A program made the position numbers and the translations under genes. Of a stretch of DNA of 64,000 nucleotides, positions 5,760 through 64,000 are shown piece by piece (positions within the stretch are counted from its first letter, which is position 1; each line of letters starts with the position of its first letter). The stretch comes from Modestobacter sp. L9-4 (GTDB taxonomy: Bacteria > Actinomycetota > Actinomycetes > Mycobacteriales > Geodermatophilaceae). Location: positions 1-64,000 of the forward strand of contig NZ_CP077800.1 of NCBI RefSeq assembly GCF_019112525.1. The letters run 5' to 3'. The notes under the pieces were generated by a model. That model was not told where the DNA came from and did no database searches. It saw only the letters and a list, made by a program, of their open reading frames with translations.

Positions 5760-8135
5760 ATGACTTCTCCGCGACGCGGGCCGGCAGGCTCCGATCGAGG
5801 CCGAGGCAACAGCGGCGGCAGTGGCGCCCCCCGCCAGGGCGGCGCGGCACGTCCGGCCGGCCACCGTGGGTCCCGTCCCACCGGGTACGGCGCAGGTGCC
5901 GGTGGCGCCTCTGGTTCGTCACGTGACGATGCCTACCGCGCACGCGGCGGTGCCGCCGGCGGCGAGTGGGGTGCGCGCCCGTCCGGCGGACGACCGCAGC
6001 GCGGTCGCCCCCAGGGTGACGGCGCCCCCCGTCGCGACGCGCAGGAACGCGGCCCCCGCACCGACCGGCCCACCGGTACCGGCCGGCCTCAGGGTGACCG
6101 TCCGTCCTGGCAGGACCGCGCCCCCCGCGGTGACCGCCCCACGAGCGGCGGACGCCCCACTGGGGGTGGACGCCCGACCGGTGGTGGCCGTCCCTCCGGC
6201 GACCGCGCCGGTGGTGGCCGCCCGTCCGGTGACCGCCCGTCCTGGCAGGACCGCCGTCCCGCAGGGGCAGGACGTCCCTCCGGCGACCGTCCGTCGTGGC
6301 AGGACCGCGGGGACCGTCCCCAGGGTGGCCGTCCCCAGGGTGGGGGCCGTCCCTCGGGAGACCGCCCTGCCGGTGGCCGCCCGTCGGGTGACCGCCCGTC
6401 GTGGCAGGACCGCCGTCCCGGTGGGGACCGTCCCGCCGGTGGTGGGCGTCCCTCCGGTGACCGTCCGGGCTCCCAGGACCGTCGTCCGAGCGGTGACCGT
6501 CCTGCCGGTGGCGGCCGCCCGTCTGGCGACCGTCCGTCGTGGCAGGACCGCCGTCCGGGTGGGGACCGTCCCTCCGGGGGCGGCCGCCCGTCTGGCGACC
6601 GCCCCTCGTGGCAGGACCGCCGTCCCGGTGGGGACCGCCCGTCCGGTGCTGGGCGTCCCTCTGGCGACCGTCCGGGCTTCCAGGACCGTCGTCCCGGTGG
6701 TGACCGTCCTGCCGGTGGCGGCCGCCCGTCCGGTGATCGCCCGGCGTGGCAGGACCGCCGCCCCGGTGGCGACCGTCCCGCCGGTGGTCGGCCGTCGGGT
6801 GACCGTCCGGCGTTCCAGGACCGTCGTCCGGGTGGAGACCGTCCTGCTGGTGGGCGTCCCTCCGGTGACCGTCCGGCGTGGCAGGACCGCCGTCCCGGCG
6901 GGGACCGTCCCACCGGTGGCCGTCCGTCGGGCGACCGTGGAGACCGCCCGCAGGGCGACCGCCCGGCGTGGCAGGACCGCCGCCCCGGCGGCGACCGACC
7001 CTCCGGTGCTGACCGCCCGGCGCCTGCCGGACGTCCCGCCGGCGACACCCCGTCCTGGCAGGACCGCCGCCCCGAGCGACGGCCGGCCGGCGGGCGCGAC
7101 GAGGAGGGCGGCAGCCGGCCCGCCGGCCCGCCGATCCCCGAGTGGGCCGACCCCCGTGACCTCGACCCGGCGGTCCGCTCCGCCCTGCGCAGCCTGGACT
7201 CCCGCAACGCCGAGCTGGTGGGCAAGCACCTCGCCGCCGCCGGTGGCCTGGTCGACGACGAGCCCGAGCTCGCCCTGCAGCACGCCCGTGCGGCCCGTGA
7301 CCGGGCCTCGCGCATCGCCCCGGTCCGCGAGGCCGTCGGGGTCGCCGCCTACCTCGCCGGCGACTTCGCCGAGGCCGCCCGGGAGATCCGCGCCTACGCC
7401 CGGATGAGCGGCGACCAGAGCTACCGGGCCGTCCTCGCCGACTGCGAGCGCGCCCTCGGCCGCCCGGAGAACGCGCTGCGCCTCGTGGCCGAGGCCCTCG
7501 AGGGCCAGCCCGACGACGAGGAGCTCGTGGAGCTGCAGCTGGTGGAGGCCGGCGCCCGGCAGGACCTCGGTGAGCTCCCCGCTGCGGCCCTCATCCTCGA
7601 GGCCGCACTCGGTGGCCGGCCCACCCCGGCCGGTCTCGGCCACCCCGACCTGGGTCAGCTCCGGCTGGCCACCGCCTACGCCGACCTGCTCGCCGCCCGC
7701 GGTGAGGAGGAGCTGGCCATGGACTGGTACGGCGCGATCGCCGCCGCCGACCCCGACGACCTCACCGGCGTCTCCGACCACTTCCTCGACGACGAGGACG
7801 AGGACGACGAGCTCGACGGTGACGAGCTCGCCGGCGGGCTCGACGAGGACGACGACGCCGAGGGTGACGTCCTGGTGGGCGCGGACTCCGACGGGTCGTC
7901 CGTCGACGAGCCGACCACTGCGCCGACCACGGTCACGGCCGAGCTGGACGACGACGAGGACGACGACGAGGCCGAGGTGGACGACGTCGACGAGGGAGCC
8001 CTCGACGACGTGGCCGACGACGACATCGAGGCCGAGGTCGCCGAACTGCTCGGTGAGGTGCCCCCGCCGCCGGTGGAGCGGGACCACAGCCGGCTGTTCC
8101 AGCAGGCGACGGAGCAGCACCCTCCGACGAACTGA
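5760..8135 (+). CDS. TPR protein with long Arg/Gly/Pro tandem-repeat N-terminus and acidic tail
   Basis: 791 aa, function unknown. Three regions differ sharply. Residues about 1-450 are low-complexity and basic, with 13 copies of a WQDRRPGGDRP-type unit spaced by RPSGDRP/AGGGRP. Residues about 455-660 are a helical tetratricopeptide-like domain beginning PIPEWADPRDLDPAVRSALR; from memory this resembles the mycobacterial Rv1691 protein. Residues about 680-780 are extremely acidic, with runs of D and E. The context (HAD phosphatase, tlyA, NAD kinase, recN downstream) supports the Rv1691 equivalence. The start is ATG 5760, with GAGG about 12 bases upstream; an in-frame GTG at 5712 would add 16 residues. 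No signal peptide or membrane segment is seen. The opposing charges suggest RNA or ribosome association or self-interaction, which is inference only. Confidence 0.85.
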   Translation: MTSPRRGPAGSDRGRGNSGGSGAPRQGGAARPAGHRGSRPTGYGAGAGGASGSSRDDAYRARGGAAGGEWGARPSGGRPQRGRPQGDGAPRRDAQERGPRTDRPTGTGRPQGDRPSWQDRAPRGDRPTSGGRPTGGGRPTGGGRPSGDRAGGGRPSGDRPSWQDRRPAGAGRPSGDRPSWQDRGDRPQGGRPQGGGRPSGDRPAGGRPSGDRPSWQDRRPGGDRPAGGGRPSGDRPGSQDRRPSGDRPAGGGRPSGDRPSWQDRRPGGDRPSGGGRPSGDRPSWQDRRPGGDRPSGAGRPSGDRPGFQDRRPGGDRPAGGGRPSGDRPAWQDRRPGGDRPAGGRPSGDRPAFQDRRPGGDRPAGGRPSGDRPAWQDRRPGGDRPTGGRPSGDRGDRPQGDRPAWQDRRPGGDRPSGADRPAPAGRPAGDTPSWQDRRPERRPAGGRDEEGGSRPAGPPIPEWADPRDLDPAVRSALRSLDSRNAELVGKHLAAAGGLVDDEPELALQHARAARDRASRIAPVREAVGVAAYLAGDFAEAAREIRAYARMSGDQSYRAVLADCERALGRPENALRLVAEALEGQPDDEELVELQLVEAGARQDLGELPAAALILEAALGGRPTPAGLGHPDLGQLRLATAYADLLAARGEEELAMDWYGAIAAADPDDLTGVSDHFLDDEDEDDELDGDELAGGLDEDDDAEGDVLVGADSDGSSVDEPTTAPTTVTAELDDDEDDDEAEVDDVDEGALDDVADDDIEAEVAELLGEVPPPPVERDHSRLFQQATEQHPPTN
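6090..7085 (+). repeat. in-frame tandem repeats encoding GDRP-WQDRRP units
   Basis: Imperfect units of about 60-75 bases built on TGGCAGGACCGCCGTCC and GGTGACCGTCC/GGGGACCG. Unit lengths are multiples of three, so the frame is kept. Variants encode SWQDR, GFQDR, AFQDR, AWQDR and GSQDR. Near-identical neighbours (for example around 6540-6680) suggest recent unequal exchange. The same bias keeps all other frames open and produces long false reading frames on both strands. Confidence 0.93.
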
Positions 8136-11833: not shown

Positions 11834-12117
11834 GTGCGGGGTGCCTCCTCGAACCAGGGGACCGCGCCGGCCGGCCGGGGGGTCCGGCGGTGCCGACCCG
11901 GCCAGGAACAGCCGGTGGTCCGTCGCCGGACGCTACCGGCGGGGTCCGACGGTCGCCGACGGCGGGCGGCCCCCGACCCGGCTCTGTCCACCGTCCCGGG
12001 CACGCACAGCCGCCTGTCGGGCTCGGCCGGTAACCTCGGGGCGCGCCGGTCCCCGGCAGCCCGGCCGGCCCTGCAGCGGGCCGGCACCCGACAGCGACGA
12101 GTGGACAGGAGGACCGC

Positions 12118-12347
12118 GTGAGCCAGCCCCATCACCCCCGCCCGGTCCCCGGTCCGGTCGCCCCTCGACCCGCTGCCCCAGGGCCGGCTGCGGTCCCCGC
12201 GCCTGGTCCGGGCACCCCGGCGGGTGCGGGGTCCGCCGGTCGGCCCTTCGCCGATCTGGCCGAGCGTCCGGTGTCCGAGCACGTCGCGGTGTTCGAGGCC
12301 GAGCACGACCGGCTGCAGCGCGAGCTGGCCACCATCGACCAGCTCTG

Positions 12348-12348
<1 letters not shown>
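12118..12348 (+). CDS. small conserved protein upstream of tlyA
   Basis: 76 aa, occupying the position of mycobacterial Rv1693. The first 45 residues are Pro/Ala-rich and low-complexity. The conserved part is C-terminal, RPFADLAERPVSEHVAVFE followed by AEHDRLQRELATIDQL, one amphipathic helix. Start is GTG 12118, with AGGAGGA about 6 bases upstream. Its TGA overlaps the tlyA ATG (TGATG), so translation is coupled. Function unknown. Confidence 0.75.
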
Positions 12349-13141
<793 letters not shown>

Positions 13142-13145
<4 letters not shown>

Positions 13146-14212
13146 CCCAGGGCATCGTCGCTCCGGCCGGTCAGACCACCCGCCGCGTCCTGCTGGCCGT
13201 GCACACCGGGCGGGCCGACATCGTCGACCTCGCCCGGTCGGCTGCGGCCCGCCTCACCCGGGCGGGCATCGTCGTGCGCCTGCTCGACGACGAGGCCGAG
13301 GACATGGCCGTGCCCGGTGCCGAGGTGTGCCCGTTCGGGCCCGGCGCGGCCGAGGGCGTGGAGCTCGTGCTGGTCTTCGGTGGTGACGGCACCTTCCTGC
13401 GCGCCGCGGAGCTCGCCCGGAGCACCGACGCGGCCATCGTCGGGGTGAACCTGGGGCGGGTCGGCTTCCTCGCCGAGACCGAGCCCGACGCCATCGAGGA
13501 GATGATCGCTGCCGTCGAGCGGCGCGAGTACCAGGTCGAGGAGCGGCTCACCCTCGACGCGACGGTCTACGACGACGCCGGTGAGCTCGTCGGGGAGACC
13601 TGGGGGCTCAACGAGGTCTCCATCGAGAAGGTCGACCGTGCCCGGGTCCTCGACGTGGTCCTGGAGGTCGACGGCCGGCCGCTGACCAGCTTCGGTTGCG
13701 ACGGCATCCTGTGCGCCACCCCGACCGGCTCCACCGCCTACGCCTTCTCCGCCGGCGGCCCGGTCGTGTGGCCCGACGTCGACGCGCTGCTGGTGGTGCC
13801 CACGAACGCGCATGCGCTGTTCGCGCGCCCGCTGGTCGCCTCGCCGGCCTCGGTGCTCACCGTCGCCATCCCACCCGACGGCAACCGCGCCCGGGTCTCC
13901 GCCGACGGCCGCCGGGTCATCGACGTGCCCGACGGCGGACGCGTCGAGGTGCGCCGGTCCGACCGGCCGGTGCGGATCGCCCGGGTCAACCCGACCAGCT
14001 TCAGCGACCGCCTGGTCGCCAAGTTCGGGCTCCCGGTGCGCGGCTTCCGCGACGCCCGCTCGCACGGCCCCGGCCACGAGGCCCCGGTCTTCGCCCAGAA
14101 CGTGCTCACCCGCGGCATCGCCACCGCCGGCAGCCCGACCGTCGGCAGCCCGGCGCACGACGACGCCCCGACCGAGGAGGCAGCCGGTGGCTCCCCGCAC
14201 CGCACGGCCTGA
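13142..14212 (+). CDS. nadK: NAD kinase
   Basis: 356 aa. Phosphorylates NAD to NADP. The diagnostic GGDGTFLRAAE (about residues 80-90), NLGRVGFLAE, the WGLNEVSIEK strand and the CDGILCATPTGSTAYAFSAGGPVVWPD region (split across two motifs) are all present. The C-terminal 60 residues beyond the core are Pro/Ala-rich and look disordered. GTG 13142 overlaps the tlyA stop (GTGA). recN begins inside its last 26 bases, so tlyA-nadK-recN are translationally linked, the same order as in mycobacteria. Confidence 0.95.
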
Positions 14213-16073
14213 GCGGACGACGGCCCGGAAGCCGGCCGCACCGCCCGTCACCGCGCCGCCCGACGACGTCCCGACGCCCGGTGACGCCACACCCGCCGGC
14301 GCCGCACCCGCCGGCCGCGCACCCAGCGGCGGCGTGCCGCGCAACGGGGCGCTGTCCGAGCTGCACCTGCACGGTCTCGGGTCGATCGACGACGTCACCC
14401 TCGAGCTCGGTCCCGGCCTGACCGTCGTCACCGGCGAGACCGGCGCCGGCAAGACCATGGTGGTCACCGGCCTGACCCTGCTGTTCGGTGGTCGCGCCGA
14501 CCAGGGACGGGTCCGCGCCGGGGTGCGGGCCGGCGTCGAGGGGCGTCTCGTGCTGCCCAGCGACTCACCCGTCTGGGCGCGCGCGGTCGAGGCCGGCGCC
14601 GAGCCCGACGAGGACGGCAGCCTCATCCTGGCCCGCACGTTCAGCGCCGAGGGCCGGTCCCGGGCACACCTGGGCGGGCGCAGCGTGCCGGTCGGCGTGG
14701 TGTCGGAGCTGGCCGAGCAGTTGGTGGCCGTGCACGGCCAGACCGACCAGCTGCGGCTGACCCGCCCGGCCGAGCAGCGACGGGCGCTGGACCGCTACGC
14801 GGGTGCCGCGCACCTGGCCGTGCTGGAGCAGCACCGCGCCGCCTACACCACCTGGCGCGCACTGGCCGAGGACCTCGACCGCCGCCGCAGCCAGGCCCGC
14901 GAGCTCGCGCAGACGGCCGAGGTGCTGCGCCACGGCCTGGAGGACATCGCCGCGGTCGCGCCCGAGGAGGGCGAGGACGAGGCGCTGGACGCCCAGGCCC
15001 GCCGGCTCGGCGACGCCGACGCGCTGCGGTCGGCCGCCGACACCGCCCGGTTCGCGCTGGTCGGCGACGTGACCGGCGAGCTGGGCGGGGGAGGGGACGC
15101 CGAGAGCGACGCCTCCACCGCGCTGGCCGTCGCCGAGCGGGCGCTGGCCGGGTCCGACGACCCGGCGCTGGTGCTGCTGGCCCGCGACCTCGCCGACGCC
15201 GTCGCCGTGGTCTCCGACGTCGCCGTGCAGCTGGCCGGGTACGTGGCCGACCTGGACGCCGACCCCGCGCGGCTGGCCGAGGTGCTGGACCGCCGCGCGG
15301 CGATCACCGCGCTGGTGCGCAAGTACGCCGACCCGGGCGAGGGCCTGGCCGGGGTCCTGGCGTGGTCGGCGGACGCGGCGTCCCGGCTGAGCCAGCTGGA
15401 CGTCTCCGACGAGGCGCTCGAGGCGCTGCAGGCCCAGCGGGACGCCGCCCGCGCCGAGCTGGACGCGCTCTCCGTGCAGGTCACGGCCGGGCGCCGGGCC
15501 GCTGCTGCCGGGTTCGCGGCCGAGGTCGGCACCGAGCTGGCCGGGCTGGCGATGAAGAACGCCCAGGTGTCCTTCCAGATCGACACCGACCCCGACCACC
15601 CCGGGCCCGAGGGCGTCGACGAGGTGGTCCTGTTGATGTCGCCGCACCCCGGGGCGCCGACCCGACCGGTGCACAAGGGCGCCTCCGGCGGTGAGCTCTC
15701 CCGCGTCATGCTCGCCATCGAGGTGGTGTTCGCCGGTGCCGACCCGGTGCCGGTGATGGTGTTCGACGAGGTCGACGCCGGCGTCGGTGGCTCCGCGGCC
15801 GGCGAGATCGGCCGGCGCCTGGCCCGGCTGGCGGCCGAGCACCAGGTCGTCGTGGTCACCCACCTGGCCCAGGTCGCCGCCTTCGCCGACACCCACCTGG
15901 TGGTGGACAAGTCCCCGGACACCGCGCAGGGCGTCACCGCGACCGACATCCGCGCGGTGCGCGGGGAGGACCGGGTGCGCGAGCTGGCCCGGATGCTGTC
16001 CGGTCTCGCCGACAGTGACACCGGTCAGGCCCACGCCCGTGAGCTGCTCGCGGTGGCCGCCGAACGCCAGTAG
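14187..16073 (+). CDS. recN: DNA repair ATPase RecN
   Basis: 628 aa. SMC-like double-strand-break repair protein. Walker A GETGAGKTM (about residue 83), long Ala/Glu/Arg-rich coiled-coil arms (about 230-470), the ABC signature ASGGELSRVMLA (about 497), and Walker B VMVFDEVDAGVGG (about 525) are intact. GTG 14187 is chosen because GAGGAGG lies six bases upstream. This gives about 50 extra low-complexity residues before the usual RecN beginning (ALSELHLHGLG). A later GTG (VPRNGALSEL) is an alternative start. It overlaps nadK by 26 bases. Confidence 0.94.
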   Translation: MAPRTARPERTTARKPAAPPVTAPPDDVPTPGDATPAGAAPAGRAPSGGVPRNGALSELHLHGLGSIDDVTLELGPGLTVVTGETGAGKTMVVTGLTLLFGGRADQGRVRAGVRAGVEGRLVLPSDSPVWARAVEAGAEPDEDGSLILARTFSAEGRSRAHLGGRSVPVGVVSELAEQLVAVHGQTDQLRLTRPAEQRRALDRYAGAAHLAVLEQHRAAYTTWRALAEDLDRRRSQARELAQTAEVLRHGLEDIAAVAPEEGEDEALDAQARRLGDADALRSAADTARFALVGDVTGELGGGGDAESDASTALAVAERALAGSDDPALVLLARDLADAVAVVSDVAVQLAGYVADLDADPARLAEVLDRRAAITALVRKYADPGEGLAGVLAWSADAASRLSQLDVSDEALEALQAQRDAARAELDALSVQVTAGRRAAAAGFAAEVGTELAGLAMKNAQVSFQIDTDPDHPGPEGVDEVVLLMSPHPGAPTRPVHKGASGGELSRVMLAIEVVFAGADPVPVMVFDEVDAGVGGSAAGEIGRRLARLAAEHQVVVVTHLAQVAAFADTHLVVDKSPDTAQGVTATDIRAVRGEDRVRELARMLSGLADSDTGQAHARELLAVAAERQ

Positions 16074-55308: not shown

Positions 55309-56496
55309 TCAGCGGACGCCGAGCAGGTGCTCGATGGCGTAGCGCTGGATGCGGGCGTAGCCGTAGCCCTTGGTGCGGGCGTCGTCGATCGGGTAGTCCT
55401 CGAACGAGCCGCGGTCGGCCAGCAGCGCGGCGTGGTCCTCGCCCTCGTTCAGGGTCGGGGTGTGCAGCGCCTCGACGCCGGAGTACTCCAGGGCCTCCTG
55501 CACGCGCGGGTCGGCCCGGAACTCCTTGGAGCGCTCGCGCAGCGTCACGTACAGCTCCATGTTGGCCTTCGCCGACTCCCAGACGCCGTCCATGTCCTCG
55601 GTGCGCAGCGGCTTGTAGTCGAAGTGCCGGTCGCCGTCGTAGGTCGGGCCACCACCGGGGGCGCCGTTCTCCAGCAGGTCGACGGTCGAGAACGCCTGCA
55701 GCAGGTCGCCGTAGCCGAAGACCAGGTCCTGGTCGTAGCGCGGGCCCTTCTGCCCGTTGAGGTCGATGTGGAAGAGCTTCTCCTGCCACAGCGCCTGGGC
55801 GATGCCGTGCGTGTAGTTGAGGCTGGCCATCTGCTCGTGGCCGGTCTCGGGGTTGATGCCGACCATCTCGTGGTGCTCGAGCTGGGAGATGAACGCCAGC
55901 GCGTGCCCGATGGTGGGCAGCAGGATGTCGCCGCGGGGCTCGTTGGGCTTGGGCTCCAGGGCGAACTTCATGTTGTAGCCCTTGTCGATCGAGTACTGGG
56001 CCAGGAAGTCGATGCCCTCGCGGTAGCGGTCCAGCCCGGCCCGCACGTCCTTGGCGAAGTCGACCTCGGAGCCCTCGCGGCCGCCCCAGAAGACGTAGAT
56101 CTGCGCACCGAGCTCGGCGGCGAGGTCCATGTTGTGCATGACCTTGCGCAGCGCGTACCGGCGGACGCCGCGGTCGTTGCTGGTGAACCCGCCGTCCTTG
56201 AACACCGGGTCGCCGAACAGGTTGGTGGTCACCATCGGCACCACCAGGCCGGTCTCGGCCAGCGCGGCCTTGAACTCGTCGATGATCCGGGTGCGCTCGC
56301 TGGCGCTGGAGCCCGGCGGGATCAGGTCGTCGTCGTGGAACGTGATGCCGTAGGCGCCGAGCTCGGCCAGCTTGTGCACGGCCTCCGCGCCGGCCAGCGC
56401 GGGCCGGGTGGCCTCGCCGAAGAGGTCACGGGCCTGCCAGCCGACCGTCCACAGGCCGAAGCTGAACTTGTCGTCGCGGCTGATGGTCGGGGTCAC
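55309..56496 (-). CDS. xylose isomerase, second paralogue
   Basis: 395 aa, the same length as xylA at 43.6 kb and roughly two thirds identical by eye. Active-site segments are kept: [37 protein letters not shown] and [20 protein letters not shown]. Differences cluster in the N-terminus ([20 protein letters not shown]) and the C-terminal helix region. It is a lone gene with no kinase beside it. The HAD gene on the same strand is separated by a hairpin and 279 bases, so it has its own promoter. GTG 56496, with GGAGGCAG about six bases upstream. Confidence 0.95.
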
Positions 56497-56567
56497 GAGC
56501 TGCCTCCAAAGACGTCAGGTGGTCGCGCGCCAGGTCCTCGACCTGACCGCCTGGCCATACTGCGCGA

Positions 56568-56579
56568 CCTGGCGCCAGG
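56568..56579. promoter_or_regulatory. 12-base palindrome upstream of xylA2
   Basis: CCTGGCGCCAGG, perfect, 72 bases upstream of the start codon. CAGGTC-CTC-GACCTG (56531-56545) is a second inverted repeat nearby. Neither resembles the operators of the xylose island. Confidence 0.4.
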
Positions 56580-56698
56580 CCGCGAACGCACAGCGGTCGA
56601 CCGCACCGCCTGGAGCGCACTGCCGGGGGTCGGCGGACCGCCCGCCTCGACCGGACCGACCGCCGGCCTCGCCGCTCCGGGACGCGGCCCCGGTCAGA

Positions 56699-56718
56699 GC
56701 GCCTCGCGGAAGAGGCGC
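56699..56718 (-). terminator. hairpin after the HAD dehalogenase gene
   Basis: GCGCCTC - GCGGAA - GAGGCGC, 7-bp perfect stem, 57 bases past the HAD stop on the minus strand. Confidence 0.6.
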
Positions 56719-56774
56719 CGGACCCGGGGAGCGGGTGGGGACGTCGTCCGGCGCCGGCCGCCCACGGGTCCCGG

Positions 56775-57476
56775 TCAGCCGACCGGGAGCAGCTGCTCTG
56801 CCAGGGCCGCCAGGTCGGCGGCGACGTGGTCGAACCGCCGGGCCAGGTCGGCCAGATCGGCCTGCGGGCTGCCGGGGCGGTCCAGGTACGCGGTGCGGAA
56901 GCCGTGCTCCGCGGCGGCGTCGAGGTCCCAGGGGTGGGCGGCGATGAAGAGGCAGTCCGCCGGGACCAGGTCCAGGGTCCGGACGACGTGTGCGTACACC
57001 CGCGGGTCCGGCTTGAACGTCTGCACCGCCTCGCCGGAGACCAGCGTCGTCCAGCGCAGCCCGGCGGCGCGGGACATGGCGAACGCCTGCGCGCTGCCGG
57101 CGTTGGTGAGCGCCACGAGCGCGTGCGCGGGGGCCAGCCGCTCCAGCGCCGCGACCACCTCGGGGAACGGGGCCAGCCGACGGCCGGCGGTGGCCAGCCA
57201 GGTGACCTGGTCGTCGGTCAGCTCCAGCCCCTGCTCGGCCGCCACGGCGGCCACCGCCTCGGCGCCGAGCACCTCGGCGACCGCGTAGGGACGCCGCCCC
57301 TCCCGCACCGCGGTCATGGCGGCGGAGGCGACCTCCTCCCAGCGGGCCACGAACGCCGGGGCGTCGCCGACGGTCCCCGCTCCGAGGGCCTGCACGGCGG
57401 CGAGCCGGCCGGCGTCCTCGTCCAGCAGCGTCCCGAGGACGTCGAACACCAGCGTGGACGGCGGGGTCTGCGACAC
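56775..57476 (-). CDS. HAD-superfamily hydrolase, haloacid dehalogenase type II-like
   Basis: 233 aa. Nucleophile Asp in STLVFDVLGTLLDEDAG, ALVALTNAGSAQAFAMSRAA (motif II), FKPDPRVYAHVVRTL (motif III Lys) and FIAAHPWDLDAAAEHGFRTA (motif IV; the HPWDLDAA form is typical of L-2-haloacid dehalogenases). GTG 57476 (VSQTPPSTLVF) is preferred; an in-frame GTG at 57494 adds six residues without a ribosome site. The true substrate may not be halogenated. Confidence 0.85.
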   Translation of the reverse strand: MSQTPPSTLVFDVLGTLLDEDAGRLAAVQALGAGTVGDAPAFVARWEEVASAAMTAVREGRRPYAVAEVLGAEAVAAVAAEQGLELTDDQVTWLATAGRRLAPFPEVVAALERLAPAHALVALTNAGSAQAFAMSRAAGLRWTTLVSGEAVQTFKPDPRVYAHVVRTLDLVPADCLFIAAHPWDLDAAAEHGFRTAYLDRPGSPQADLADLARRFDHVAADLAALAEQLLPVG

Positions 57477-57540: not shown

Positions 57541-58887
57541 TCACTGCGCCGACAGCACCGCCACGGGGTCCTGGCGCAGCCGCAGCACCGCCGGTACGAC
57601 CGTGGCGGTGAGCACCAGCAGCAGCGTCGCCCCTGCAGTGACCCCCAGGGCGGGCAGGCCGAGCGCGCCAGGGTCCAGCGACCAGGACCCGACCGCCCAC
57701 GCGCCGGCGATCGCGGTGGTGGCGACCGCGACCAGGGCCAGCAGGGTCGCGGTGCCCACCTGCACGACCGCCTCCCAGGCCGCGGTGGCCACGACCAGCC
57801 CCGGGGTGGCGCCGGCGGACTCCAGCAGGGCGGCGTCCCGGGCGCGGGCCCGGCCGGAGACGGCCACGGTGGTCGCGGCGCCCACGGCGGCCAGCAGGAG
57901 CGGGCCGCCCAGCAACAACACCAGCGAGGAGACCGGCAGGTCTGCCGGGGGCGTACCGGACCGACCCACCTGCGCTGCGGCGATGGTCCCGTGGGTCGAC
58001 CACAGGCCGCCGGTCAACGCGATCATCACCACCAGGGGGTTGATCGCCGCGGTGCTGCGGTCGAGGTCGGCCAGGGCGACGTTGCGCGCCAGGTACCAGG
58101 AGGACGACGCGTCCGCCGGCACGACCCGGGTCCAGGTCCGGGCAAGGGCCGGGGTGAGCAGCGGGGCCGCCGCCACGAGTGCGCCGGCCAGCAGTGGCGC
58201 GATGAGCATCAGGGGGTTGCTCAGCTGGTCGAGATCGCGTCCGGGCAGGCCCAGGACGAGGGAGACGACGGCGGCGACCAGGACGCCGCCGACCACCCAG
58301 CGCGTGCGGGTCATGGTCAACCGGGGGACGGCGGCCTCGCTCAGCAGCTCCAGCCCGGTCACCCGGCTGGCCTGGCGGGCGGCGCCGGAGCCGCCGGCGA
58401 GCACCAGCAGCGCGACCAGGGCGACGGTGCCGGCCACGCCCACGGGGCCGATCCTGAGCTGGACGTCCCCCAGCCCCTGGGCGTCGGCGAGGACGTAGTC
58501 GGCGAAGGGCTGCAGGAACGGGGCCGCGACGAGGCAGCCGAGCAGGGCCCCCAGCGCACCGACGACCAGCAGCTGCGCCAGCACGATGAGCCGGATGGCG
58601 CCCGGGCGGACGCCGACCAGTTGCCACAGCGCGTGCGAGCGGCGCTGCAGGGTGACGGTCAACCGGGCCACCGAGCTCAGCACCACGACGATGGAGATCA
58701 CCACGAACCCGGTCAGCGAGCCGCCCACCCCGTACAGCGCGAGCCCCGCGGTGCCCGGGGTTCGGTACGCGGTCTCGACGAGCGCCGCGCTGACCGAGAC
58801 GACTCCGCCGGCGGCCAGGCACACGAACAGGACCGCCAGCCACATCCGGGCGTTGGCGACCAGGTCGCTGACCAGCAGCCGGAGCAC
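57541..58887 (-). CDS. FtsX-like ABC transporter permease
   Basis: 448 aa with about eight hydrophobic segments. N-terminal SDLVANARMWLAVLFVCLAA helix, then VVLSSVARLTVTLQRRSHAL and WQLVGVRPGAIRLIVLAQLL typical of FtsX/MacB domains. The C-terminal SGRARARDAALLESAGATPG repeats the same domain pattern, so it is a two-FtsX-domain permease of reduced size. It lies one base after the ATPase gene on the minus strand. Substrate unknown; such pairs often expel peptides or antibiotics. Confidence 0.87.
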   Translation of the reverse strand: MLRLLVSDLVANARMWLAVLFVCLAAGGVVSVSAALVETAYRTPGTAGLALYGVGGSLTGFVVISIVVVLSSVARLTVTLQRRSHALWQLVGVRPGAIRLIVLAQLLVVGALGALLGCLVAAPFLQPFADYVLADAQGLGDVQLRIGPVGVAGTVALVALLVLAGGSGAARQASRVTGLELLSEAAVPRLTMTRTRWVVGGVLVAAVVSLVLGLPGRDLDQLSNPLMLIAPLLAGALVAAAPLLTPALARTWTRVVPADASSSWYLARNVALADLDRSTAAINPLVVMIALTGGLWSTHGTIAAAQVGRSGTPPADLPVSSLVLLLGGPLLLAAVGAATTVAVSGRARARDAALLESAGATPGLVVATAAWEAVVQVGTATLLALVAVATTAIAGAWAVGSWSLDPGALGLPALGVTAGATLLLVLTATVVPAVLRLRQDPVAVLSAQ

Positions 58888-58888
58888 G

Positions 58889-59623
58889 TCAGACCACCTG
58901 GCCGGCGGAGATCTCGGCGAAGACCTGGTCGGCGGTGGGCCGGGTCAGCTCGCGGGAGACCACGCCGTCGCGCAGCACCACGACGCGGTCGGCGCGCGCG
59001 GCGGACACCACGTCGTGGGTGACCAGCACGACCGAGCGGTCGCCGGCCGCCGTCTGCCGCAGCAGGTCCAGCACCTGGGTGCCCGACGCGGTGTCCAGCG
59101 CGCCGGTCGGCTCGTCGGCGAACACGACCTGCGGCCGCGCGGCCAGCACGCGGGCGATGGCCACCCGCTGCTGCTGGCCACCCGACAGCGCCGACGGCTT
59201 GTGCCCGCCGCGGTCGGCCAGCCCCACCTCGGCCAGCGCGCGGTCGACGTCCTCGACGCTGATCCGGTGCCGGGCCAGCCGGGCCGGCAGTGCCACGTTC
59301 TCCCGGGCGCTGAGGGAGGGGATGAGGTTGTAGGACTGGAAGACGAAGCCGACTCGGCCGCGGCGCAGCGCGGCGAGCTGGCCGCGGCGCAGCGTGGACA
59401 GGTCCTCGCCCAGCAGCCGCACGGTGCCGGAGGTGGCGGCGTGCAGCCCGGAGAGGCAGTAGAGCAGCGTGGACTTGCCCGACCCGCTGGGGCCCACGAT
59501 CGACACCATCTCCCCGGGCTCGACGCGCATCGAGACGCCGCGCAGCACCGACACCGGTGGGCCGCCGTCCGGGCCGGCGAAGGTCGCGGTCAGGTCGTGC
59601 GCCTCGAGCAGGGGAGGGGGCAT
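58889..59623 (-). CDS. ABC transporter ATPase (MacB/LolD type)
   Basis: 244 aa. Walker A IVGPSGSGKSTLLYCLSGL (about residue 43), Q-loop GFVFQSYNLIPSLSARENVA, signature LSGGQQQRVAIARVLAARP, Walker B VVFADEPTGALDT and switch VLVTHDVVSAA. Works with the permease at 57541. ATG 59623. The 381 bases upstream hold a GTCACGTGAC-centred motif shared with two other promoters. Confidence 0.93.
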   Translation of the reverse strand: MPPPLLEAHDLTATFAGPDGGPPVSVLRGVSMRVEPGEMVSIVGPSGSGKSTLLYCLSGLHAATSGTVRLLGEDLSTLRRGQLAALRRGRVGFVFQSYNLIPSLSARENVALPARLARHRISVEDVDRALAEVGLADRGGHKPSALSGGQQQRVAIARVLAARPQVVFADEPTGALDTASGTQVLDLLRQTAAGDRSVVLVTHDVVSAARADRVVVLRDGVVSRELTRPTADQVFAEISAGQVV

Positions 59624-60004
59624 GGTCTCGTGTCTCCATCAGTGGTCCGGTCCGGTCCGGGCCGGGCCCTCGCCGGGCGGCCGTCGGCGACAGCGTGCCG
59701 GGGAGGTCGCGTCGTCGTCATCAGTCACGTGACTCGGCGGGACGGGGCCGGTGGGCCGCACGGGTGGTCGTGCCGTCCCCGTCGGCGGCCGCGACCCCCG
59801 GGTGCGCGGCGAGGGCAGGACGTGGGGTCGTGCGCGGCCACAGCGGTGACCGCGCCGGTCAGCCGGTCGGACCGGGTGCGTCGAGGGCAGCCGACTCGGC
59901 CTCCACCCCGGCGAGCAGGAGGTGGTCCTCGGCCGCTGTGCACTCGGCTGGGCTCGCTGGGCTCGGCCGGTGAGCTGCCCCCTCGCCCGGCCGGGCCCGC
60001 GGCG
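59624..60004. other. intergenic region upstream of the ABC pair
   Basis: 381 bases. It holds the shared motif (59719-59734), a short GGTCC iteration (TGGTCCGGTCCGGTCCGG, from about 59642) and GC-rich sequence near the DUF4331 stop. I see no gene. Confidence 0.6.
59719..59734 (-). promoter_or_regulatory. shared 16-base motif, copy 1
   Basis: AGTCACGTGACTGATG read on the minus strand, 95 bases upstream of the ABC ATPase start. The core GTCACGTGAC is a perfect palindrome. Confidence 0.6.
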
Positions 60005-61027
60005 TCAGGCGGGGACGACGTACGGGAACTCCGTGCGCCGCAGGTCCCGGTTCGTCGCCGGCGTCAGGCCCGACGGGACGGCGCTGCCGGTGACCAGCGA
60101 CAGCATGACCTCGGGGGCGTTGTCGGCCAGCGTGCGGCCGTTGCGGACAGCGAACCCGTAGGTGGCCGGCGTGCCGACGACGTAGGACAGCACGTCGGGG
60201 AAGAGCTCGGCGACCACGGCAGCGGCGTGCCCCGCCGGGTCGGCGACGGCCCCGCTCGCGGCGACGGTGGCGGCGATGTGCTCGGCGATGTGCGCCCGGT
60301 CGTTGTCGACGTCCTGGGAGACGTGCTGAGTGTTGGCCGGGTGGGTGAACTGGACGTCGGTCGGCCAGAAGATCGGCCACGTCATCGGGTGCCCGGCGCG
60401 GTTGACCTGCCGCCAGCCGCCGGCGTCGGTGGCCAGCTTGGTGGCCGCCCAGACCCCGATCCGGGCGCCGGGGCGCAGCAGCGGGTGGTCGTGGGAGACC
60501 TCCAGCACGATCGTGTCCACGGTGGTGCCGGTGAAGCTGTTCGTGGCCTGCTCGGGCCGCCAGTCGGACAGGTCGACCGCCGTCCCGTCGGCGACGGCGG
60601 CGTTGACCTTCGAGAGCAGCCCGAGGTCGATGTAGAACCAGTCCCGGATGCGACCGGCCCACAGCTGCACGCCGGCGCCCGTGGCCGCCGTCCCGGTCGT
60701 GCCCTCCACCAGCAGCTCGCCGGTCGCGTCGTCCCCGACCGCGTCGCTGCCGGTGAGCGCGTGCAGCTGCAGCGTCTGCCGGCCGTCGGCGCCCGCCTCG
60801 GCGAAGGCGACCCGGTAGGTGAGCTCCTCGGACTCGGCCCCGTCGAGGTGGACCTTGAACTCGTACCGCGCCTCGGGGTGGAAGCTCGGCTCGGAGTGCA
60901 GGCCGTTGATCGTGGAGTTGACGTCCATGACGAAGACGGTGCTGTCCTGCCCCGGGAAGACGCACAGGTCGTCCAGGAAGAGCTGGCCGGTCTGGGCGGC
61001 CAGCGGTGTGTCGAGGTGGTGGGACAC
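60005..61027 (-). CDS. DUF4331 family protein
   Basis: 340 aa, recognised from SHHLDTPLAAQTGQLFLDDL (the SSH-D-P opening), VFVMDVNSTINGLHSEPSFH, ARYEFKVHLDGAESEELTYR and the C-terminal NAPEVMLSLVTGSAVPSGLT. Function unknown; many members are abundant in actinobacteria under stress. No signal peptide here. GTG 61027 lies eight bases after GAGAGG; the longer frame to 61165 runs over the regulatory motif and is rejected. The promoter region is shared with the divergent hydrolase gene. Confidence 0.85.
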   Translation of the reverse strand: MSHHLDTPLAAQTGQLFLDDLCVFPGQDSTVFVMDVNSTINGLHSEPSFHPEARYEFKVHLDGAESEELTYRVAFAEAGADGRQTLQLHALTGSDAVGDDATGELLVEGTTGTAATGAGVQLWAGRIRDWFYIDLGLLSKVNAAVADGTAVDLSDWRPEQATNSFTGTTVDTIVLEVSHDHPLLRPGARIGVWAATKLATDAGGWRQVNRAGHPMTWPIFWPTDVQFTHPANTQHVSQDVDNDRAHIAEHIAATVAASGAVADPAGHAAAVVAELFPDVLSYVVGTPATYGFAVRNGRTLADNAPEVMLSLVTGSAVPSGLTPATNRDLRRTEFPYVVPA

Positions 61028-61110
61028 GGTGGTTCCTCTCGCTCGGGAGCCTGGTGGACGAACCCCGCGCGGCGGGGCCCGTCCACCCTGTCCGAGGAGC
61101 CGGGGTCCGA

Positions 61111-61126
61111 CATCGGTCATGTGACT
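61111..61126 (-). promoter_or_regulatory. shared 16-base motif, copy 2
   Basis: AGTCACATGACCGATG read on the minus strand, 83 bases upstream of the DUF4331 start. Confidence 0.6.
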
Positions 61127-61217
61127 GGGCCGGACGCCGATCGCCGTCCGCGTCGTCCGGCGCACCCGTCTGTAGAGGACGCGAGCCCGACCGGGACCAC
61201 CGCTGCGGCAGCGGGAC

Positions 61218-61233
61218 AGTCACGTGACCGATG
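61218..61233 (+). promoter_or_regulatory. shared 16-base motif, copy 3
   Basis: AGTCACGTGACCGATG on the plus strand, 70 bases upstream of the alpha/beta hydrolase start. Same orientation to its gene as copies 1 and 2. Confidence 0.6.
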
Positions 61234-61303
61234 CGCGGCCGTGGCCGCTCCGGTGAGGCTCCTCATCGATCTCGTCCACCCCGAGCCGAAGAGGTACCAC
61301 CTG

Positions 61304-62269
61304 ATGACCGAGCCCGTGAAGCCCGTCCTGGAGCCCACCGCCCAGGCGTTCGCCGATGCCAACGCCAACCCGCCGTTCCTCTACCAGCTCTCCCCGGCCG
61401 AGGGCCGGAAGATCGTGGACGGCGTGCAGTCCGACCCGCCGCCGGTGGTCCTGGACGCCGACGTCTCCGACCTGACCATCGAGGGCGGCCCGACCGGCTC
61501 CGTGCGGGTCCGCATCGTGCGCCCGGCCGGCGCCACCGGCGTCCTGCCGGTGATCCTCTACGTGCACGGCCTGGGCTGGGTGTTCGGCGGGCCGCAGACC
61601 CACGACCGGCTGGTTCGCGAGCTGGCCGTCGGCGCGCAGGCCGCCGTGGTGTTTCCCGACTACGACCTGGCGCCGGAGAAGCAGTACCCGACCCAGATCG
61701 AGCAGGTCTACGCGGTCGCGGACTGGCTGGCGATGAACGCCCCCGAGCAGAGCCTGGACGCGAGCCGGATCGCGATCGCCGGTGACTCGGTCGGCGGCAA
61801 CATGGCCGCCGTCACCACCATCCTGGCCAAGCAGCGCGGCGGGGTGTCCTTCACCGGCCAGCTGCTGTTCTACCCGGTGACGAACGCGGACTTCGAGACC
61901 GGCTCCTACCACCAGTTCTCCTCCGGCTACTTCCTCGAGCGGGCCGGCATGCAGTGGTTCTGGGACCAGTACACGACCGACCCCGCCCAGCGCGCGAAGA
62001 TCACCGCCTCCCCGCTGCGGGCGACGCTGGAGGACCTCGCCGGCCTGCCCCAGGCGCTGGTCATCGTCGGTGAGGCCGACGTCCTGCGCGACGAGGGCGA
62101 GGCCTACGCGGCCAAGCTGCGCGCCGCCGGCGTCCCGGTCACCGCGGTCCGCTACGCCGGGATCACCCACGACTTCGTGGGCCTGAACCCGCTGCGGCAC
62201 ACCTACGCCGCCGAGGCCGCCATCAACCAGGGCATCGCGTTCCTGCGCGGCGTGCTCGGCACCGACTGA
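61304..62269 (+). CDS. alpha/beta hydrolase (fold-3, HSL/esterase type)
   Basis: 321 aa. Oxyanion motif LYVHGLGWVFGGPQTHDRL (HGLG in place of HGGG), FPDYDLAPEKQYPTQIEQVY, nucleophile Ser in IAGDSVGGNMAAV, acid Asp in IVGEADVLRDEGE and His in RYAGITHDFVGLN. Hormone-sensitive-lipase-like esterase, cytoplasmic, substrate unknown. ATG 61304, with GAGG about 10 bases upstream. The stop overlaps the NTF2-like ATG (TGATG). Confidence 0.92.
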   Translation: MTEPVKPVLEPTAQAFADANANPPFLYQLSPAEGRKIVDGVQSDPPPVVLDADVSDLTIEGGPTGSVRVRIVRPAGATGVLPVILYVHGLGWVFGGPQTHDRLVRELAVGAQAAVVFPDYDLAPEKQYPTQIEQVYAVADWLAMNAPEQSLDASRIAIAGDSVGGNMAAVTTILAKQRGGVSFTGQLLFYPVTNADFETGSYHQFSSGYFLERAGMQWFWDQYTTDPAQRAKITASPLRATLEDLAGLPQALVIVGEADVLRDEGEAYAAKLRAAGVPVTAVRYAGITHDFVGLNPLRHTYAAEAAINQGIAFLRGVLGTD

Positions 62270-62637
62270 TGCCCGACGCCCTGGTGCCCGGTCCCGCGGA
62301 GCTGTTGGAGCGGATGGTCGCCGACGTCTTCAACCAGCCCGACGCCGACCGGCGGGCTGCGGTGATCGCCGAGCTGTTCACCTCCGACGTCGAGTTCACC
62401 GACCCGGAGCGGACCGTGCGCGGCCGCGACGAGCTGGCCGCGACGGTGAGCGGGCTGCTCGCGCAGGGACCCGGCCTCGTCTTCGTCCACGCGGGTCCCT
62501 TCCGCGGCGTGGGCGACCTGGGCATGCAGTCCTGGCGGCTGGGCCCGCCCGGCGGCGAGCCGGTGCTCGGCGGGCTGGACGTCGTGACCGTCGTCGACGG
62601 CCGCATCGCCCGGCTCTGGACCCTGATCGACGCCTGA
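62269..62637 (+). CDS. NTF2-like / SnoaL-like protein
   Basis: 122 aa cone-shaped fold: ELLERMVADVFNQPDADRRA, IAELFTSDVEFTDPERTVRG, RDELAATVSGLLAQGPGLVF and GGLDVVTVVDGRIARLWTLI. Typical of small hydratase/isomerase-like or ligand-binding NTF2 proteins. Coupled to the hydrolase by TGATG, so the two probably act in one step of an unknown pathway. Confidence 0.82.
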   Translation: MPDALVPGPAELLERMVADVFNQPDADRRAAVIAELFTSDVEFTDPERTVRGRDELAATVSGLLAQGPGLVFVHAGPFRGVGDLGMQSWRLGPPGGEPVLGGLDVVTVVDGRIARLWTLIDA

Positions 62638-62694: not shown

Positions 62695-64000
62695 TCAGCG
62701 GCCGAGCGCGTCGCGCAGCTGTGCCCGGGAGGTGAGCCCCAGCTTCGGGAAGATCCGGTACAGGTGGCTGCCCACCGTGCGGTGGGAGAGGTAGACCTGG
62801 TCGGCGATCTCCTTGTTGGTGTGACCGTCGGCAGCCAGGTGCGCGATCTGCAGCTCCTGGGCGGTGAGCAGGGCGGCGGCGTCGCGGGCGCCGCGCGGGT
62901 GCCGGTCCACCGGTGCCGCGCCGGCCGCCCGCAGCTCCGCGGCGGCCCGCTCGGCCCACAGCCGGGCACCGGCGGCGTCAAAGGCGTTCAGCGCCTCCGT
63001 GAGCGGCTCCACCGCCGACCCGATCTGCCGCTGGCGGCGCAACCACACCCCGTGCGCGAGCCGGGTGCGGGCCAGCTCCAGCGGGGCGCCGCCGACCTCG
63101 CCGGCCGCGGTCGCCGCCCGGTAGGCGTCCTCGGCGTCCGGCCCGTCGCACAGCAGCGCGCGGCTGCGGTGGAGCAGCATCGCCAGGTGCGGTGAGCCGA
63201 ACACCGCGTTGTCCCGCTCCAGCTGCTCCACCACGCCGGTCACCTCGGCGGCCTTGCCACTGCGGACGGCGGCCTCGGTCAGGTCCCCGATCGCCCAGGC
63301 GGCGACCACGGGGTGCTCCTCGACCTGGCGCAGCCGCACCCACGCGTCGCGGTGCCGGTGCTCGGCCAGGGCCAGGAGACCCGCGGCCCAGTGCAGCTCG
63401 GCCGCCGTGCGGCCCACCGGCGCGCTGCCGGCCGTCGTCTGAGCCTGCTGCAGCGCCGCCGCGGCCCGCTCCAGGTCACCCGTCCAGGTCGAGGCCTGCG
63501 CGAGGACGCCGAGGGCGGCCGCCTGCACGATGAACAGGCCGGCGTCGCCGGACATCCGCCGGGTGAGCTCGGCGCTGGCCAGCGCGCCGGTGAGGTCACC
63601 GGTCACCACCCGCACGAGCGCCTGGCCGTGCAGGGTGAGGCACTCCTCGCTCACCTCCCGCGCCTGCCGGGTCAGCTCGGTCGCGGTCGACCACAGCGCC
63701 GCTGCCGTGGGCAGGTCCTGGATCGCCTCCGCCGCGGTCGCCAGCCGGTTGGGGGCCGGCACCGCACCGCCGATCTGACCCAGCCGGCCACGCCACCGGG
63801 CGGCGTGCTGCAGCGGGTCCACCAGCAGCAGGGCGACCTGCAGCTCGGCGTCGGGCACGCCCAGCGGGCGGACGGCGGCCAGCGCGTCCCGCACCCGCCC
63901 GGGCAGTGTGCCGCCGGGGTGCAGCACGTTGACCCCGATGGCGGCGGCCGACAACGCGCGCATCCGGGCGTGGGGGTGGGCGGTGCCGGTGGGCCCGGCC
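62695..64000 (-). CDS. LuxR-type (LAL-like) regulator, truncated by the window
   Basis: At least 435 residues; the N-terminus lies beyond 64000. The visible part is a chain of TPR-like helices (DLPTAAALWSTATELTRQAR, DLERAAAALQQAQTTAGSAP, WIRL-type repeats). It ends in a LuxR HTH: LTAQELQIAHLAADGHTNKE then IADQVYLSHRTVGSHLYRIF, with KLGLTSRAQL closing. Large LAL regulators carry an N-terminal ATPase, which would be outside the window. It may control the neighbouring hydrolase/DUF4331 genes (inference from proximity only). Confidence 0.88.
   Translation of the reverse strand, partial: AGPTGTAHPHARMRALSAAAIGVNVLHPGGTLPGRVRDALAAVRPLGVPDAELQVALLLVDPLQHAARWRGRLGQIGGAVPAPNRLATAAEAIQDLPTAAALWSTATELTRQAREVSEECLTLHGQALVRVVTGDLTGALASAELTRRMSGDAGLFIVQAAALGVLAQASTWTGDLERAAAALQQAQTTAGSAPVGRTAAELHWAAGLLALAEHRHRDAWVRLRQVEEHPVVAAWAIGDLTEAAVRSGKAAEVTGVVEQLERDNAVFGSPHLAMLLHRSRALLCDGPDAEDAYRAATAAGEVGGAPLELARTRLAHGVWLRRQRQIGSAVEPLTEALNAFDAAGARLWAERAAAELRAAGAAPVDRHPRGARDAAALLTAQELQIAHLAADGHTNKEIADQVYLSHRTVGSHLYRIFPKLGLTSRAQLRDALGR

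Follow-up and report, generated by a model that had tools for sequence, protein, structure and literature searches.

Three 16-base sites lying within 1.6 kb of one another in the genome of Modestobacter sp. L9-4 are very probably, to judge from the sequence, the operators of a large ATP-binding LuxR-family (LAL) regulator encoded beside them at 62,695-65,463, which we predict to be a class II activator of the esterase/SnoaL, ABC-FtsX, and DUF4331 genes (Table 1). Positions refer to contig NZ_CP077800.1, whose first 64,000 nucleotides we call the window; other genomes and loci carry our G and L numbers. The sites are rare by computation and clustered, they share one orientation relative to their genes and a common spacing to a -10-like element, they are associated with LALs, and boxes recur in orthologous modules.

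Table 1. Coordinates of the candidate operators, putative -10 elements, and genes discussed in the text.
Feature	Position	Strand	Basis or remark
FtsX-type permease	57541..58887	-	Pfam FtsX, 24.9 bits, just below the cut-off of 25.5
ABC transporter ATPase, target 1	58889..59623	-	Pfam ABC_tran, 1.3e-35
Putative -10, CACGCT	59692..59697	-	21 bases past GATG of operator 1
Operator 1 (candidate)	59719..59734	-	AGTCACGTGACTGATG; 95 bases upstream of ABC ATPase start
DUF4331 protein, target 2	60005..61027	-	Pfam DUF4331, 8.8e-20
Putative -10, CAGGGT	61085..61090	-	20 bases past GATG of operator 2
Operator 2 (candidate)	61111..61126	-	AGTCACATGACCGATG; 83 bases upstream of DUF4331 start
Operator 3 (candidate)	61218..61233	+	AGTCACGTGACCGATG; 70 bases upstream of esterase start
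Weak putative -10, GAGGCT	61255..61260	+	21 bases past GATG of operator 3; misfits [TC]AnnnT
Alpha/beta-hydrolase (hormone-sensitive-lipase type) esterase, target 3	61304..62269	+	Pfam Abhydrolase_3, 7.3e-70
SnoaL_2 (NTF2-like) protein	62269..62637	+	Pfam SnoaL_2, 1.2e-11; start overlaps esterase stop
LAL regulator, C-terminal part with HTH	62695..64000 in window	-	Gene extends to genome position 65463

The initial annotation had described the three sites as copies of one motif, and its observation as a whole is confirmed: positions and strands are all as claimed, as are the distances to the start codons at 59623, 61027, and 61304. Its consensus needed correction, in that the site at 61111 departs from it by one mismatch; the centre of that site is CATG, and the consensus therefore becomes AGTCACRTGACYGATG. 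The centre varies among the sites, so that the fixed CACGTG of an E-box is absent. A scan of the 4.22-Mb single-contig genome, which bears on the question of whether the motif is commoner than chance, returned only four exact matches to GTCAYRTGACYGATG; 17 further matches carry two mismatches and none carries one, and the reversed motif gave 15 matches at up to two mismatches. Three of the exact 15-base copies lie in the window and one at 222.5 kb, and the same four sites are the exact matches to GTCANNTGACNGATG, for which base composition predicts about 0.12 in this genome. Across 112 family genomes the 15-mer occurs exactly eight times, four of them in this genome, and its reverse does not occur. 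Within the window alone, at up to three mismatches, the sites are unremarkable, three matches being reached in 15 of 100 shuffles. The idea of a shared regulatory site is thus supported. That of an unrecognised local regulon needs changing, since the exact site at 222.5 kb makes it more than local and similar sites adjoin LAL genes elsewhere, so that the box is not peculiar to this genome; the interpretation as a whole is partly supported. A site at 222136 with two mismatches was set aside because by eye it resembles a terminator hairpin 3' of a transporter gene. A fourth GTCACGTGAC palindrome falls outside called genes at 5918-5927 of the window, where GATG follows on the plus strand without a spacer base.

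The permease and ATPase genes probably share one operon. The best NCBIfam match of the esterase is LipP1, at 289.7 bits and below the cut-off of 350. Directly downstream of the permease gene, at 55309-57476 of the window on the minus strand, are genes for a xylose isomerase and a type II haloacid dehalogenase.

The LuxR-type gene at 62.7 kb, named by the initial annotation as a candidate regulator, now stands as the likely (predicted) one. Its product has 922 residues, in keeping with the size of about 900 expected of a LAL, with an N-terminal ATPase domain (Pfam AAA_16, 1.1e-22, residues 14-176) and a C-terminal HTH (Pfam GerE, 4e-14, residues 865-916). All helices of the 19 LuxR-type HTH matches in the genome were read, and the helix HLYRIFPKLG is unique to this LAL; the next match is 51% identical. 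The three window sites lie 1.5-3 kb from the helix.

The geometry of the promoters is shared well beyond the window. A hexamer [TC]AnnnT stands 20 or 21 bases past GATG at 33 of 49 distinct intergenic sites versus none of 10 coding sites, and at any other position it occurs in at most 4% of the 49. The pattern was first noticed in part of the 49 sites later counted; among newly fetched loci alone it is found in 16 of 24, and in none of the 10 coding sites. An alignment of 36 sites shows conservation at GTCAnnTGACnGATG and at a -10. All 14 exact intergenic sites have a gene start 51-145 bases away on the GATG side, and in 13 of the 14 that start is closer than the one on the opposite side. If the hexamer is taken as the -10, GATG occupies a position between -37 and -33, and the midpoint of the palindrome is at -42.5 or -43.5; a palindrome near -43, placed by a -10-like hexamer 20-21 bases past GATG, would suit class II activation. 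No TTGACA-like -35 box is evident by eye beside the sites. Regulator class and promoter geometry are both well supported by computation. The asymmetric GATG side had been ascribed to a dimer with an extra contact or to an adjoining promoter element, and both guesses gain support. ECF41-type promoters carry a TGTCAC motif; such a promoter was considered and dropped, as no CGTC was seen at the proper spacing by eye.

We infer binding by the LAL, activation rather than repression, and a response to an inducer. A LAL dimer would bind GTCAnnTGAC, made up of two TGAC half-sites separated by 2 bases, together with the downstream GATG. Centred near -43 on a promoter that by eye shows no obvious -35 box, it would recruit RNA polymerase to the -10 element 20-21 bases downstream, as in class II activation. 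MalT activity requires ATP and an inducer, and the LAL would presumably be active under the same terms. It would then turn on the operon of the esterase and SnoaL_2 genes, the ABC-FtsX transporter and DUF4331 genes, and, at 222.5 kb, a short ORF. A regulator that covers the -35 region can also block polymerase, and SCO6993, itself a LAL, acts as a repressor according to the portion of the study available to us (PMC9628970). That the LAL binds these sites as a repressor or two-way regulator, keeping the promoter blocked until inducer arrives, is nevertheless unlikely in our estimation, given that no -35 box is obvious beside the site by eye and that a fixed position at -43 suits class II activators.

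The association of the box with LALs extends to other genomes. A search of 397 genomes from the order gave 18 GTCACRTGACYGATG sites in 15 genomes, compared with 3 for the reversed pattern. Of 15 exact sites in other genomes, seven are intergenic by eye and eight coding or over an in-frame ATG. The eight were set aside, ATGACCGATG translating to MTD; the site in L034 is ambiguous, lying either 92 bases upstream of the called gene or over an alternative start of that gene, and at one of the eight (G009) the stretch examined held no HLY/HLH LAL. All seven intergenic sites outside Modestobacter L9-4 have a LAL within 5 kb, although that in G124 is a truncated call and belongs to a more remote type (E 4e-9 to the Modestobacter L9-4 LAL). 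By eye, the targets there are alpha/beta hydrolases at four sites, an SDR, an FMN reductase, and a DUF4242-like gene.

A search that began from the protein gave a similar picture. Seven LALs, which also underlie the LAL HMM used below and were originally found adjoining the motif, were aligned against genome contigs; at least 591 stretches matched, and the best 80 loci were kept. At up to one mismatch these loci hold 10 motif matches, with none for the reversed motif and a mean of 0.25 (maximum 4) for 60 shuffled motifs; at two mismatches there are 30 matches, with 6 reversed and a shuffled mean of 7.3, the shuffled maximum of 38 exceeding the motif itself. GTCANNTGACNGATG is found 11 times between genes and never in coding sequence in the 42 loci whose LAL has an HLY helix, and not at all in the remaining 38, and 92 permuted controls average 0.02 (maximum 1). 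The bare palindrome is found at 38 intergenic and 3 coding positions in the HLY loci and at 14 and 0 in the others; for three control palindromes the intergenic matches number 1-3 in the former and 0-6 in the latter.

Among 108 family genomes, GTCANNTGACNGATG marks 44 sites in 27 genomes (reversed, 1), often clustered, as with four within 15 kb in G065. An HLY/HLH-type LAL is nearby at 25 of the 34 intergenic sites versus 0 of the 10 coding ones, kinship being ignored, and at 16 of 24 intergenic sites once the genomes that suggested the idea (Modestobacter L9-4, G004, G077, and G078) are removed; at the other 9 of 34, none was found in the stretch examined. The LAL HMM adds two loci, L197 (intergenic, with a more distant LAL of another helix type) and L193 (coding), and leaves no LAL in the examined reach of L177 (two sites), L191, L192, L194, L195, L199, and the 222.5-kb site. 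Sites were classed as intergenic or coding with a gene finder of our own making, which was trained on nine Modestobacter L9-4 genes and is unreliable at lower GC. Class-wide, in 394 genomes, the composite pattern GTCANNTGACNGATGN{20,21}YANNNT returned 22 sites in 19 genomes and none when reversed. The association is weaker there, with a LAL in reach of 7 of the 19 sites outside Modestobacter L9-4 (6 of these 7 also by tblastn): 6 of the 9 that have a gene start no more than 150 bases away, and 1 of the remaining 10. With a LAL near only 7 of 19, the composite pattern is by itself no proof of an adjoining LAL.

The tail of the box varies with the helix of the neighbouring regulator. We collected palindromes that have a -10 at 20-22 and a LAL no more than 5 kb away, a set in which one LAL may count repeatedly, and found GA after the first base of the tail in 28 of 35 HLY cases versus 0 of 8 HLH cases (Fisher p 4e-5, kinship ignored); six of the eight HLH tails are GCTCG or GTACG. 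Five cases with other helices, four of them GATG, were kept out of the test. The variable Y/H residue falls in the recognition helix of the LAL-DosR alignment, and the NarL residue at the matching position touches DNA. This covariation favours a tail that is read by the LAL. In the loci with HLH-helix LALs (L079, L094, L109, L119, L240, L241, and L242), palindrome and -10 spacing are unchanged. The same data bear on whether GATG and the -10 form a promoter recognised by an unusual sigma factor, with the palindrome incidental. The fixed spacing to a -10-like hexamer would suit such a promoter, and an ECF sigma gene does lie near the 222.5-kb site, at least 149 bases away on the other side; yet the bare palindrome is itself enriched near LALs and the tail changes with the LAL helix at constant -10 spacing, which leaves this reading with hardly any weight.

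Among the 108 family genomes, the DUF4331 protein has one distant relative only (36%), and a search for the LAL at E 1e-150, in which at most eight candidates were scored per listed genome, found only that of Modestobacter L9-4 itself. Conservation was therefore followed through the esterase and the ABC-FtsX pair, and the expectation that the box should be kept upstream of orthologues is borne out in part. It holds where the genes travel as a module, mostly with imperfect boxes. In G136, from another family, a 78% identical esterase has an ABC-FtsX pair and a LAL (42% identical over 930 positions) beside it, with a two-mismatch box upstream of the esterase and a one-mismatch box upstream of the ABC gene. 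The LAL module of Herbiconiux solani has one-mismatch boxes upstream of both genes, and a Curtobacterium sp. has an exact box upstream of the esterase and a second, with one mismatch, past the LAL and upstream of the gene preceding ABC-FtsX. All six boxes are followed by xAnnnT at 20 or 21. At a LAL locus of Actinoallomurus soli, a DUF4331 relative (69%) stands behind two SDR-like genes, the first of which has a GAAG-tailed box upstream.

It fails for the esterase relatives in G022, G069, and G015 (90%, 82%, and 81% identical), which lack the LAL-esterase-ABC module and have no box upstream. There (L210, L211, and L212) the SnoaL-like neighbour is kept and a divergent MarR-like gene is present (both named by eye), while the box is replaced by the palindrome GTGACATGTCATGTAAC. 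Nothing in G022 or G069 matches the LAL helix region at more than 53% or 54% identity, respectively, and G015 has two LALs elsewhere in the genome, both with HLH helices. The esterase/SnoaL pair thus appears from these sequences to have swapped regulators between close relatives. Another regulator travelling with the genes (MarR, TetR, or SARP) might instead read the box, leaving the LAL a bystander: a MarR-like gene is present in the Curtobacterium and Herbiconiux loci as well as beside the LAL-less esterases, L027 has a TetR-like gene, and two SARP-like genes occur by eye beyond the Modestobacter L9-4 LAL. We consider this improbable, because by eye no other regulator is common to all loci, the palindrome of the MarR-linked esterases is a different one, and the tail of the box tracks the LAL helix. 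The two SARP-like genes, 5-12 kb past the LAL, are at L023:7898-9856 and 11900-14800 (genome about 70.4-77.3 kb).

At 222.5 kb the box is followed 21 bases on by the hexamer TACGGT, and by the usual geometry transcription would begin at the initiation codon, ATG, of an ORF that has 75 codons and no Pfam match. This suggests that the transcript may be leaderless and divergent from the ECF sigma gene on the opposite side. No LAL was found within the 20 kb examined around the site, and we infer that the LAL at 62,695-65,463 serves it as well. Box and ORF are at L022:9766-10040 (genome about 222.3-222.5 kb).

Evenly balanced, in our judgment, is the wider proposal that GTCAnnTGAC with a variable tail is a general operator for a large set of actinobacterial LALs, situated about 43 bases upstream of the transcription start, in which the helix would read the tail (GATG/GAAG-like for HLY, GCTCG/GTACG-like for HLH) and target genes would change regulators by operator swap. 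Swapping is proposed because the same esterase operon has the LAL box here and a MarR-linked palindrome in relatives. Because similar sites stand beside similar regulators in other bacteria, LAL targets may become readable from sequence, and if the general-operator proposal is true, those of very many uncharacterised LALs would be predictable in this way. With its defined sequence and fixed place in the promoter, the box provides a sequence test for LAL-controlled genes and permits a simple reporter assay to find LAL inducers. It also ties families of unknown function (DUF4331, SnoaL-like, and DUF4242-like) to hydrolase and transporter regulons.

LALs are described as a poorly studied family in the available part of one report (PMC3282765). 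In the accessible portions of the open-licence literature, taken as text without figures and their logos, we found no LAL operator GTCAnnTGAC; this holds for the parts seen of PMC6099782, PMC9628970, PMC11784345, PMC10100954, PMC10135024, PMC3282765, and PMC3466318, and the literal string turned up in two papers, both of them on oestrogen. SCO6993, TpdR, and MilO are actinobacterial LuxR-family regulators, the first two being LALs, and as far as the excerpts go none has a site like the LAL box: the authors of a recent study could predict no consensus for SCO6993 (PMC9628970), the site proposed for TpdR is a 15-nt direct repeat, TnnAAnnGCGGAnTC (PMC6099782), and MilO has three direct repeats of TGTC(N)3CGGT.

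The prototype LAL, MalT, has the same N-terminal ATPase and C-terminal LuxR-type HTH as the protein at 62,695-65,463 and activates its regulon, as we propose for the latter. Its box is given as GGA[TG]GA in the text available from one study (PMC9628970) and as two decanucleotides in direct repeat in that from another (PMC6099782). The two boxes thus differ, that of MalT having direct repeats and the LAL box being a GTCAnnTGAC palindrome that carries a tail on one side, and GGA[TG]GA repeats are not among the conserved columns of the 36 aligned sites. The HTH of the LAL aligns with PDB chains of DosR (E 4e-8), VpsT, and GerE. NarL sites, with a 7-2-7 layout, resemble the LAL box in having paired half-sites and a 2-base gap, although the DNA words of NarL, DosR (DevR), and GerE differ from it. 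Regulators of the NarL and DosR types carry a receiver domain, whereas the LAL at 62,695-65,463 has an ATPase half instead.
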